The notes beneath the pieces were generated by a model. The model saw only the letters and a program-made list of their open reading frames with translations, was not told the DNA's origin and ran no database searches. Below, piece by piece: positions 261-43,319 of a stretch of 43,452 nt of DNA (positions are counted from its first letter, which is position 1; each line of letters begins with the position of its first letter). The stretch lies in contig JAITGN010000129.1 of NCBI GenBank assembly GCA_031280565.1, positions 1-43,452 on the forward strand, written 5' to 3'. Source of the DNA: Accumulibacter sp. Its GTDB lineage: Bacteria > Pseudomonadota > Gammaproteobacteria > Burkholderiales > Rhodocyclaceae. Position numbers and translations under genes: made by a program.

Positions 261-508
261 TAACCGATCTGCGCTGATTTTTGCGCAACGACGCGCCGGA
301 CGCCCGGCCGCCCGCACGCCGCTAGCACGCCGCGCAGGGCGGGAACGTTTTCTGTCCGGAAAGGCCCGGCAAAATCCGGATTTTCCTCAGCCGAAAGATA
401 ACGGTATTTTTCCGCCCATTCCAGCGGCATCAGCGGCGCGCGCGGGCGCAAGACCGCGAAAACACGGGCTATCAGGGCGTTCAGGGCAGCTTGGACGGAG
501 GGGTTCAT
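261..508 (-). pseudogene. Phage terminase large subunit (GpA/TerL type), N-terminal remnant
   Basis: The frame starts at ATG 508 and encodes about 80 residues resembling the N-terminus of lambda gpA-type terminase large subunits: a helical start, then PLEWAEKYRYLSAEENPDF, a FRTENVPALRG stretch, and VVAQKSAQIG, where the Walker A-like motif (normally KSAQVGKTE or similar) should follow. Homology stops exactly inside that motif, where IS630-like sequence begins; four foreign residues and a stop follow. The ATPase centre and nuclease domain are gone, so it cannot package DNA. On the upstream side the start codon abuts repeat family A at 509, so any small-terminase gene is also lost. This is a remnant of a prophage near the guaA 3' end. 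I am fairly sure of the family and sure of the truncation. Confidence 0.65.
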
Positions 509-676
509 CAGAAACTAACTCCGGTTTGAAACCCCGCCCTTCAGGGCGGTGTGGAGGTTGGAACCCCGGCCTGAAGGCCGGGGTTTCGACCGTAGCCATT
601 GGGGAGGGGATGCAAACCCCTCCCCAATGATGTTAGAGCGACAGCGCCTTCCGGGCTGTCGCTAATTTCTTGCTCA
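509..676 (+). repeat. Repeat family A, copy 1: four consecutive hairpins
   Basis: Four perfect or near-perfect stem-loops follow one another: 534-549 (CCGCCC/GGGCGG, loop TTCA), 562-585 (11-bp stem AACCCCGGCCT), 597-629 (13-bp stem, 7-nt loop) and 637-663 (9-bp stem AGCGACAGC). Related copies lie at 26565-26734 (inverted) and 42331-42502 (degraded). No protein frame runs through it. The arrangement recalls the subterminal hairpins of IS200/IS605 elements or their non-autonomous derivatives, but no tnpA or tnpB gene is present. Confidence 0.8.
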
Positions 677-771
677 GAAACTCACTTCGGTTGGAAACCT
701 CCCCCTTCAGGGGGATACTCTTGTTTGGGAGAGGCGTCACCTCTTCCAAACGGTCGCCCGCTTGCGGGCGG
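675..771 (+). repeat. Diverged tandem variant of repeat family A
   Basis: The start CAGAAACTCACTTCGGTTGG matches the start of copy 1 (509 onward) with substitutions. Three stem-loops follow: 700-715 (TCCCCC/GGGGGA, loop TTCA), 723-751 (12-bp stem with one G-T pair, 5-nt loop) and 755-770 (CGCCCGC/GCGGGCG). The first two correspond in order and shape to hairpins 1 and 3 of copy 1, although the stem sequences differ. Confidence 0.65.
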
Positions 772-781
772 GGATTGAAAC
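753..781 (+). other. Solitary CRISPR-repeat-like sequence (type I-C-like)
   Basis: The 29-nt sequence begins GTCGCCCGC, has a short palindrome (CGCCCGC/GCGGGCG) and ends GGGGATTGAAAC. That is the layout of type I-C repeats, which are about 32 nt, begin GTCGC and end GGATTGAAAC. No second copy occurs in the next 300 nt and no cas gene is present in the window. It may be an array relic or a chance product of the hairpin-rich repeat. It is not an array. Confidence 0.35.
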
Positions 782-26564: not shown

Positions 26565-26734
26565 GAGCAAGAAATTAGCGACAGCCCGGAAGGCGCTGTC
26601 GCTCTAACATCATTGGCAAGGGGTTTACATCCCCTTGCCAATGGCTACGGTCGAAACCCCGGCCTTCAGGCCGGGGTTCCAACCTCCGCACCGCCCTGAA
26701 GGGCGGGGTTTCAAACCGGAGTTGGTTTTACGAT
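26565..26734 (-). repeat. Repeat family A, copy 2 (inverted)
   Basis: Read on the minus strand this copy reproduces all four hairpins of copy 1. Hairpins 1, 2 and 4 are the same or nearly the same. Hairpin 3 (at 26630-26643 and around) has the stem CATTGGCAAGGGG/CCCCTTGCCAATG instead of CATTGGGGAGGGG/CCCCTCCCCAATG: two changed base pairs, both still paired. It ends with ACTCCGGTTTG and a short ATCGTAAAA flank shared with copy 3. Confidence 0.8.
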
Positions 26735-26908
26735 CAATTCCGGGTTAGAGGCCGTTTTTCAAGGATATTACGCGCGCAAGAAATCCACGGCGCATACGCG
26801 ATCGCTCTTTTCCGGGGTGGGACAAAGGCTCCACGCGGAACGTTCCGGATTTGCCGCGCGGCGCGAAAAGAGGGAACTCATTGGCATAATATATCACGAT
26901 GAAAAACG

Positions 26909-38698: not shown

Positions 38699-38719
38699 CT
38701 TTGGGTTTCCGGAAACCTT

Positions 38720-38792
38720 CTTTCCAGTCCGTTCGCCCTGCCTGTCCTGAGCTTGACGAAGGAAGCCTGTCGAAGGGTAAGGATTGGAAAGG
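38720..38792 (-). repeat. Repeat family C, inverted copy
   Basis: CTTTCCAGTCC (38720-38730) and GGATTGGAAAGG (38781-38792) bound a sequence containing GCCCTGCCTGTCCTGAGCTT and CCTGTCGAAGGG. The whole is the reverse complement of the units at 42727-42800 and 43064-43122. Confidence 0.65.
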
Positions 38793-38876
38793 CCAGGAAT
38801 GTCTTTACCTTGAACGCCCCTGATTCAAGAGGCGTTGGGAAGCCCTCGGAGCGTCCGTTCCTACTTCGACAGGCTC

Positions 38877-38975
38877 AGTACGAACGGAAATAGATGCCAT
38901 CAATGCGTTCCGGCAAAATCAGTACGAACGGGAATATATGTCGTCGATGTGTCCCGGCAAAATCACCACGAGCGG
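38877..38975 (+). repeat. 44-nt imperfect tandem repeat, about 2.2 units
   Basis: AGTACGAACGG starts units at 38877 and 38921, each ending in CCGGCAAAATC; a third partial unit starts at 38965. The units differ at several bases. Confidence 0.5.
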
Positions 38976-42200: not shown

Positions 42201-42330
42201 CGCACGTTCGTCAAAATACCGGAATAGAGGCGTCATTCTACAGGAGTCCGCCAGACAAATTGCGCAGACACCCTCGCTGTGAAATGCGCGCGGCTTCCAG
42301 ACCGGGGCTTTTTCCTCACCACATGCCCTC

Positions 42331-42502
42331 ATCGTAAAATCAGCTCCGGTTTGAACCCACGCCCGAAAGAAGCGGCGCGAAGGCTGGAACCCCGCTCAAT
42401 CGGCCGTAGTTTCGATCATAACCATTGGTGAGGGGAGAAAAACCCGTTCCCAATGATGTTGGATCGACAGCGGCTTCCGGGCTGTCGCTAATTTCTTGCT
42501 CA
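42331..42502 (+). repeat. Repeat family A, copy 3 (degraded)
   Basis: The flanks ATCGTAAAA and CTCCGGTTTGAA and the end GCTAATTTCTTGCTCA match copies 1 and 2. Hairpin 4 is intact except one outer pair. Hairpins 1, 2 and 3 have lost much of their pairing. It lies upstream of dedA. Confidence 0.7.
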
Positions 42503-42603: not shown

Positions 42604-42726
42604 ATATTTTAAATCGCGCCGGTTTGTCCTGAGCCTGTCAAATTTTGGGGTGATCCTGTCGAGCCATATGAACAGCGCGTATTCCCGTTCGTACTGAGCT
42701 TGTCGAAGTATGAACAGGCATTCCAG

Positions 42727-42800
42727 CCTTTCCAGTCCTTACCCTTCGACAAGCTTCCTTCGACAGGCTCAGGACAGGCAGGGCGAACGGACTGGAAAGG
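42727..42800 (+). repeat. Repeat family C unit
   Basis: A perfect 12-bp inverted pair, CCTTTCCAGTCC (42727-42738) and GGACTGGAAAGG (42789-42800), encloses CCTTCGACAGGCTCAGGACA and GGCAGGGCGAAC. The upstream flank (about 42687-42726) is also shared with the second unit at 43022-43063. Confidence 0.7.
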
Positions 42801-42901
42801 CGCTCTTCGACGAGCTTCCTTTGCTTGGCTCAGGACGACGCAAGGCGAATGGATGAAGAAGAACCTCTCTCAGCAGATTCAAACTCTGGAGGCCGTGTCA
42901 A

Positions 42902-42926
42902 AGATTAAAAATGCCTTAAGGGCGTT
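42902..42926 (-). repeat. Repeat family B, single copy
   Basis: On the minus strand it begins AACGCCCTTAAGGCATTTTT and ends AATCT: 22 of 25 identical to the copy at 38674-38698. Confidence 0.6.
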
Positions 42927-43063
42927 GTTTTTATATTTTTCTCTGTTTTTTTTCATTGGGTGGCAATGGCGTTAAAAACCCGTCCGCGATAAACCTGCCG
43001 AAGCATCGGCAACGCCTATCTCCGTTCGTACTGAGCCCGTCGAAGTATGAATGGGCGCTCCAG

Positions 43064-43122
43064 CCTTTCCAGTCCTTACCCTTCGACAGGCTCAGGACAG
43101 GCAGGGCGAACGGACTGGAAAG
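43064..43122 (+). repeat. Repeat family C unit
   Basis: CCTTTCCAGTCC (43064-43075) and GGACTGGAAAG (43112-43122) enclose TTACCCTTCGACAGGCTCAG and the GGCAGGGCGAAC segment. It is shorter than the first unit because one internal CTTCGACA repeat is missing. Confidence 0.7.
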
Positions 43123-43319
43123 ACACTCTTCGACAGGCTCAGGACGCGGGGCGAATGAATCGAAAAGGCGGAATCCACCTTCTCCCGCCCCTTTGGAGCG
43201 CCCTCTTCCGCGTGCGGCTTGCGGGAAAAGGGAAAAGCGCTTCTCTTCCGTGAGCGAGAGAGCGACCTCTCCTCTTTCCAGCGTGTTGGACAGGGCGAAA
43301 CAGCCACATCTCACGCGCT

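Follow-up and report, generated by a model that had tools for sequence, protein, structure and literature searches.

A dispersed four-hairpin element in the window

The window, by which we mean the whole stretch of 43,452 nt analysed here, contains three copies, two well preserved and one decayed, of a repeat of about 167 nt (family A), together with a sister element of a second family (family B). Their positions and parts, with the basis of each assignment, are as follows.

504..508, + strand: target pentamer TTCAT 5' of copy 1, host sequence outside the element (role from the empty site)
509..674, + strand: element copy 1, family A, from the first C to TTGCT (boundaries set after the empty-site work)
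528..531, + strand: left-end guide GAAA of copy 1, directly 5' of the hairpin 1 region (guide-target test)
534..549, + strand: hairpin 1 of copy 1, the left-end hairpin, CCGCCC/GGGCGG (sequence, folding, covariation)
560..587, + strand: hairpin 2 of copy 1, GGAACCCCGGCC/GGCCGGGGTTTC (sequence, RNA folding, covariation)
597..629, + strand: hairpin 3 of copy 1, with two compensated pairs and the tetranucleotide GTAG in front (covariation, tag scan)
638..662, + strand: hairpin 4 of copy 1, the right-end hairpin, GCGACAGC/GCTGTCGC (covariation)
663..674, + strand: right terminus of copy 1, TAATTTCTTGCT (comparison of ends among copies)
675..781, + strand: sister element of family B, CAGAAACTCACTTCGGTTGGAAACC...GGATTGAAAC, whose left end abuts copy 1 (relatives in L051, L063, and L092)
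26566..26732, - strand: element copy 2, family A, full length (sequence, DNA search)
26733..26737, - strand: target pentamer of copy 2, the variant TTGAT (sequence)
42328..42332, + strand: target pentamer of copy 3, the variant CTCAT (sequence)
42333..42500, + strand: element copy 3, family A, decayed (sequence, covariance model)

Copy 1 is thus sandwiched between TTCAT and the left end of the family B element. All three copies of the original prediction are present, but its description of four stem-loops in the same order is only loosely true of the decayed copy 3, which is 81% identical, has lost most of the pairing in hairpins 1 and 2, and shows mismatches in hairpin 3. The complement of the pentamer of copy 3 provides the first ATG in a minus-strand ORF of 261 codons; with a DedA-family match beginning at residue 56, the true start of this ORF may lie further in. 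The prediction had also placed no transposase gene nearby, and the contig of the window indeed gave no match to Y1 tnpA (PF01797) or TnpB (PF07282).

The left end of family B is similar to that of family A, and TTCAT also precedes it in L051, L063, and L092:52-160. Its right end consists of a hairpin followed by GGATTGAAAC or GGGTTGAAAC (window 675-781, L051, and L092), which may resemble type I-C CRISPR repeats. Another dispersed intergenic repeat, of the TTCGACAGGCTCAGTACGAACGG type, occupies positions 38719-38967 and 42649-43139 of the window and is also found in L051 and L052; elsewhere in the host genome, one repeat of this type is interrupted by a family A element (L036).

Copy number and distribution

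The host assembly comprises 2,160,259 bases in 145 contigs and is 92% complete. A DNA search found the element in at least 40 places, over 113-168 nt, and a covariance model built from 20 copies gave at least 102 matches at E <= 0.001, a lower bound as 103 of the 1069 candidates were scored. We extracted 41 copies with their flanks, 20 of which are at least 98% identical to their consensus, so the spread of the element was recent. Several host contigs terminate within a copy, as expected for a repeat.

Relatives were found in 8 of the 27 other congeners. Including the host, 9 of the 28 genomes of the genus carry them, with 1 to at least 103 matches each, and the covariance model had no match in the remaining 19. 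Extended to the order, the same search gave matches in 8 of 399 genomes, that is, the host and seven others. The pentamer before the element is mostly TTTAT in one other genus (G068, G290, and G378), and the order of the hairpins is conserved, with TTTAT or TTCAT in front, in other families of the order. Among the matches listed for the left-end pattern, the named genomes are mostly Zoogloeaceae bacterium and Accumulibacter sp., with some Betaproteobacteria or Burkholderiales bacterium and one uncultured proteobacterium; judging from the isolate names, most of these records are presumably termite-gut MAGs. A copy with 79% identity over 91% of the query is also present on one plasmid of Polaromonas sp. 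JS666 (Burkholderiales), where it directly abuts the annotated start of an IclR-family gene. Nothing was found when viral contigs were searched for the exact left-end pattern, or phage records for the element by blastn.

Ends, target site, and empty sites

The left end of the element reads C, GTAAAAC, three variable bases, and CTCCGGTTTGAAACC, followed by hairpin 1. At the right end, hairpin 4 is followed by CTAATTTCTTGCT, and hairpins 2 and 3 lie between the ends. Both ends recur among the copies in hand, including natural short forms, which retain both ends in as little as 57 nt and may have arisen by deletion in place. The 57-nt versions at L170:3418-3474 and L190:1858-1914 have a single hairpin and both ends. 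Compared by eye, the ends C-GTAAAAC and TTGCT do not form terminal inverted repeats. The pentamer preceding the element is TTCAT in 116 of the 148 two-ended copies, GTCAT in 8, TTGAT in 4, CTCAT in 3, TTCGT in 3, and others in the rest.

The boundaries of the element were fixed by an empty site. One copy (G000:C141:37199-37364) sits in the final codons of serC, a gene identified by an NCBIfam match on the C-terminal fragment of a congener (E 6e-60). When the flanks of this copy were joined, matches across the junction were found in 18 of the 27 other congeners, and the element's first C is absent from all 11 aligned junctions. In L221 the empty site reads TTTCAT|GAAGG; the other 10 aligned congeners differ within the pentamer, which may simply reflect the coding sequence of other species. 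Since the empty site lacks the first C of the element, insertion took place 3' of TTCAT, with neither duplication nor loss of the target. The host keeps TTCAT and the element extends from the first C to TTGCT, although a shift of the boundary by one shared T is possible. The serC empty site demonstrates that the element is mobile. It also speaks against a classical MITE, mobilized by a DDE transposase and having terminal inverted repeats and a target duplication, since no duplication is seen.

Orthologous empty sites were not found for the other 17 complete copies in the joined-flank query. A second empty site was provided by the copy of L036, which lies within another dispersed repeat whose unoccupied copies are continuous across the junction. 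In a third case (L022), the joined flanks match a sequence in G004 that proved to be hairpin 4 of another member of the family, the loop of which holds TTCAT on the complement. Hence, the L022 copy appears to have inserted at a TTCAT inside hairpin 4 of another copy.

Folding and covariation of the hairpins

A near-consensus host copy outside the window (L075) folds more stably than expected by chance, with z = -8.7 with DNA energies and -8.2 with RNA energies, and none of 200 shuffles was equally stable. The two sets of energies differ in the preferred structure: with DNA energies the minimum is a long-range pairing between the left arm of hairpin 1 and the right arm of hairpin 2, while RNA energies give the local hairpins. 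The long-range structure also lets TTTC of hairpin 2 pair with the guide GAAA, and TTTT with AAAA in the G290 type, so that the guide may be hidden in one of two alternative folds.

As the original prediction stated, the stem CATTGGGGAGGGG/CCCCTCCCCAATG of hairpin 3 in copy 1 becomes CATTGGCAAGGGG/CCCCTTGCCAATG in copy 2. On its own, this change between two copies is not direct evidence for selection: intermediates exist, with GGGGAGGGG facing CCCCTTCC in L029 and also in L044 and L045 (both truncated at contig ends), and the same pattern results when a hairpin serves as the template for copying. The case for covariation therefore rests on a larger set of copies. We collapsed 118 copies of 155-175 nt at 95% into 67 non-redundant ones, whose alignment has 187 columns. 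In the local model with four hairpins, 84.9% of the cells are paired and 93 show a change in both partners, compared with 31.3 +- 4.1 in shuffles and 12-27 in slid structures. The long-range model has 87.7% of paired cells and 130 double-changed cells, against 58.4 +- 5.6 in shuffles and 8-21 in slid structures. These shuffles ignore the relatedness of the copies, and the figures should not be read as probabilities. The number of pairs with a double change (14 in the local and 13 in the long-range model) is less decisive, as it is reached by 46 and 53 of 500 shuffles, respectively. The approach put forward in the original prediction, a genome-wide collection of copies and a covariance model, gave the host matches described above, and the covariation test on the 67 copies is positive.

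The strongest covarying pairs are found at the top of hairpin 4 (C-G/G-C/A-T) and in hairpin 3 (G-C/T-A). Hairpin 1 alone is paired in only 67.7% of the cells, and hairpin 3 is interrupted by an internal loop in about 19 copies. The hairpins recur in identical order but with different arm sequences in other families of the order, which we regard as a better argument than the shuffle statistics; the covariation is real. An excess of G.T over A.C, as would be expected if a single strand folds, is confined to hairpin 3 (67 vs 12) and comes mostly from one pair; the counts are 9 vs 10 in hairpin 4 and, in hairpins 1 and 2, 86 vs 107 in the local and 37 vs 57 in the long-range model. The idea, formed by eye, that the loop of hairpin 3 pairs with TTGCT fails in one subfamily. 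Some copies are rearranged (L125:1969 ff, L165, and L176), with a left end, a partial body, and an inverted left end, or with repeated internal hairpins. They look as if they had been copied by template switching in the hairpins.

A guide-target code shared with IS605 elements

Each end hairpin of IS608 is preceded on its 5' side by a guide of four nucleotides that base-pairs with the cleavage site (AAAG-TTAC and GAAT-TCAA); the target is retained in the left flank, and an altered guide shifts the target (PMC5934647). We found the same type of correspondence in the IS605 copies of the order, including some with a broken tnpA, where guide and adjacent target are CAAG-TGAC, AAAG-TTAC, AAAA-TTAT, CAAA-TGAT, and GAAG-TCAC. 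The gene-less elements of families A and B, G336, and Polaromonas have GAAA next to TCAT, and three related gene-less elements (G290, G378, and G392) have AAAA next to TTAT. Across the 31 parsed elements, the guide predicts the tetramer followed by C in 28, whereas 10,000 shuffles reach a mean of 7.5 and a maximum of 17.

The code holds for 19 of the 20 IS605 elements, the exception being L293, and for 9 of the 11 gene-less elements, the two misses being family A representatives at the variant sites TTGAT and TCCAT. Ten of the 41 entries of the test, all IS605, were left unparsed; by eye, L280, L287, L291, and L296 fit the code, L281 does not, and the rest are unreadable. The code had first been noticed on L256, L257, and G000:C30 (the same as L286, L273, and L284), and 25 of the 28 fits lie outside that set, although family A, the outgroup rows, and the IS605 listing had already been seen before the test. 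The fit ties the element to the targeting of the IS200/IS605 group, and does not by itself name the transposase. The guide GAAA is absent among the 20 parsed IS605 copies. One IS605 tnpA fragment (G000:C12:1-367, L048) adjoins a family A copy without a gap, its left end against the right end of that copy. The guide of this fragment is TAAA, which would be off-code if its target was TTCAT.

Search for a transposase partner

In the host genome, tnpA is matched four times, on three other contigs, by copies that are broken or truncated at contig ends, and TnpB once. Y1 TnpA was found in 4 of the 10 congeners that bear the element or match it weakly, and in 5 of the 7 element-bearing genomes elsewhere in the order; several of the genomes in these two sets are incomplete MAGs. 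The original prediction had suggested looking for a TnpA gene whose ends match the element. At the tnpA and TnpB loci, searched by end patterns, blastn, and reading, we recognised no autonomous element in which a Y1 TnpA is combined with the two ends of family A. Of the 119 left-end matches, 43 lack a right end within 260 nt, many being cut by contig ends, and these 43 were inspected by eye.

The right ends of the IS605 elements, readable in 11 of 15 loci, all finish in TCAA, in contrast to TTGCT in our element. Hairpin 4 and TTGCT are present, and a guide pairing with TTGCT was not recognised by eye. A RAYT-like gene in G020 (L087) lies near a short TTCATCGTAAAACTA stretch that resembles the left end; this was set aside, as the stretch points away from the gene. 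The element could also have been the right end or guide RNA of a TnpB, but the 3' flanks at 3 of the 5 congener TnpB loci bear no resemblance to it by eye. The orientation of 86 copies relative to GC skew gave no signal of a lagging-strand bias (48 vs 38, p = 0.33). In G000:C30 (L051:1824-1955), a short repeat bounded by AGTGTTCTGTCC/GGACAGAACACT interrupts an IS605 tnpA.

Insertions at start codons

On the opposite strand, TTCAT reads ATGAA. In a simple ORF test, a start-like ATG was found at 13 of 48 copies and at 167 of 2095 other TTCAT sites of the same loci (one-sided Fisher p = 9e-5). A crude gene caller, in which the junction ATG was counted as a start if in frame and within 30 codons of the called start, placed 17 of 73 copies at a start, 18 in intergenic regions, and 38 inside genes, compared with 54, 124, and 759 of 937 background TTCAT sites. 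Copies inside genes are depleted (p = 1e-7), and the ratio of start to intergenic positions is only slightly raised (17:18 vs 54:124, p = 0.049). Hence, the enrichment at start codons relative to all TTCAT sites is strong but largely results from depletion inside genes. Many surviving copies are at start codons because TTCAT is the complement of ATGAA and because insertions in genes are under-represented.

The ORFs starting at the junction ATG include nusB and an amidohydrolase (NCBIfam, above cut-off) and, below cut-off, two rRNA-methyltransferase-like genes, a GlcD-like oxidase, and a PaaK-like ligase; 4 of the 10 tested had no match at 1e-20. Several of these ORFs are outside the 13 above, as the joined frame stays open upstream, and the rRNA-methyltransferase-like genes of L056 and L145 have similar N-termini and are perhaps not independent.

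A GGAG lies 11-12 nt before the position of the ATG in 62 of the 67 non-redundant copies, and is lacking in the Polaromonas copy. Sequestration of this Shine-Dalgarno sequence in a riboswitch-like leader is unsupported, since the trend is opposite: the mean pairing of GGAG on the gene-ward strand in the 62 copies is 0.52, against 0.61 with the upstream part shuffled. No promoter-like site was found around copy 2, where 0.3 were expected. We hypothesize that the GGAG at the left end may be a reason why insertions at start codons are tolerated, which would not in itself prove a regulatory role. A bolder proposal, which we hold to be rather unlikely, is that the element is a single-strand transposon acting as a mobile translation-start adaptor, in which GAAA aims at TTCAT and the built-in GGAG keeps translation going while the 5' leaders of genes, that of nusB included, are rewired.

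Nature of the element and rival explanations

We conclude that the element is very probably a non-autonomous transposable element of the IS200/IS605 type, similar to the haloarchaeal PATEs described below. This was the first candidate of the original prediction, and it is favoured by the fixed pentamer, the absence of target duplication, the hairpins at the ends, and the match between guide and target. A HUH (Y1) TnpA supplied in trans would bind the hairpins near both ends of the single-stranded top strand, and the guide would pair with the TTCAT of both the donor flank and the target. The excised circle would then be re-inserted 3' of another TTCAT. The hairpins would be kept by selection for processing by TnpA and by hairpin-templated copying. 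Against this reading count the difference between the right ends (TTGCT vs TCAA), the failure to find an autonomous element with both ends, and the conservation of the internal hairpins 2 and 3 beyond the needs of end recognition. The patchy occurrence of Y1 TnpA, the broken or truncated tnpA copies of the host, the absence of a GC-skew signal, and the off-code IS605 elements L293 and, if its target was TTCAT, L048 also weigh against it. In addition, 39 of the 67 copies have the tetranucleotide GT[AG]G, the canonical tag of REP sequences (PMC6006769), in the six-base stretch leading to the foot of hairpin 3. Because of this tag, we lowered our confidence in an IS200/IS605 element, still high, and raised that in a REP/REPIN-like element spread by a domesticated RAYT (TnpA-REP) instead of an IS200/IS605 TnpA, which we nevertheless consider improbable. 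The latter would also account for the many gene-less copies with hairpins, and Y1 proteins of the longer, RAYT-like size exist in some congeners, that of L087 next to a TTCATCGTAAAACTA stretch. However, none of the 67 copies has the tag in front of hairpins 1, 2, or 4, and it is also absent from the ten G025-type copies and, by eye, from the outgroup sequences; the repeats flanking the RAYT-like gene of G020 are other ones, and a fixed target pentamer with a predictive guide is a feature of IS605.

Two further explanations concern the hairpins themselves. Hairpins 2 and 3 are conserved with compensatory changes and recur in other families, although transposition should need only the ends. Together with the copies at called gene starts and the position of GGAG, this could point to a structured RNA that has its own function, such as a small RNA or a mobile leader, and for which mobility would be secondary. 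This second candidate of the original prediction seems very improbable to us, since the covariance models of Rfam 15 gave no match in the window at gathering score, copy 2 has no promoter-like site around it, GGAG is not kept in a helix on the gene-ward strand, and the excess of G.T over A.C is seen in hairpin 3 only. There is also little chance that the paired changes arose merely because neutral repeats were copied with a hairpin as template (by template switching or repair), and not through selection or use as a folded strand. Such copying would explain arm swaps such as CCTGAAGG/CCTTCAGG, palindromic rearrangements with inverted left ends (L125 and L165), and the copies changed in one arm only, but it leaves the fixed ends, the target, and the empty sites unexplained, and it fits poorly with hairpins of the same order and different arms in other families and with the collapse of the slid controls.

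Relation to known systems and significance

The closest parallel to an IS200/IS605-type element of this kind is given by the PATEs of Haloquadratum walsbyi, which lack terminal inverted repeats, have palindromes near both ends, and do not duplicate their target (PMC3119063). They are too short to encode a transposase, reach 177 and 194 copies in two strains, include core-deleted forms, and move although intact TnpA genes are scarce or absent (PMC3119063). Family A resembles them in all these respects: no terminal inverted repeats, palindromes at the ends, no duplication, short length, high numbers, core-deleted forms, and scarce TnpA. It differs in being bacterial, in its four hairpins in fixed order across families, in its target TTCAT, in a right end (TTGCT) unlike that of the related IS605s, and in its many copies at start codons.

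Like IS605 and IS608 (PMC5934647; L273-L302), the element inserts 3' of a short target that remains in the left flank, and it has a target-matching guide tetranucleotide at the foot of the left hairpin and a left hairpin of the CCCCGCC-TTCA-GGGCGG kind. Unlike these elements, which carry tnpA and tnpB, it is gene-less, its right end is not of the GAAT...TCAA type, and it has two extra internal hairpins. ISDra2 also has a pentanucleotide target, TTGAT (PMC5934647), and the code described here pairs TGAT with CAAA (L288 and L287), but ISDra2 is autonomous whereas our element is not. REP, BIME, and REPIN sequences with their RAYTs (PMC6006769, PMC3116915) are likewise short, numerous, gene-less hairpin repeats, with GT[AG]G as at hairpin 3 in 39 of the 67 copies; family A differs from them by the lack of the tag at its other hairpins, its asymmetric fixed ends, its defined insertion site, and its empty sites. 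Among the titles and beginnings of abstracts covered on non-autonomous IS200/IS605 elements, IS608 guides, REPIN/RAYT, ISDra2, PATEs, start-codon insertions, and termite-gut Rhodocyclaceae, none describes the family.

The link between guide and target in IS608 has been established by structure and engineering (PMC5934647). The gene-less elements and IS605s studied here provide natural evidence that the left-end guide and the target change together. They also reveal a bacterial family similar to PATEs, with more than 100 copies in two genomes and members in several families of one order, in which the spread of elements without an obvious transposase can be studied. Finally, these results raise the idea that the choice of target, combined with a built-in Shine-Dalgarno sequence, may let a transposon live against start codons.
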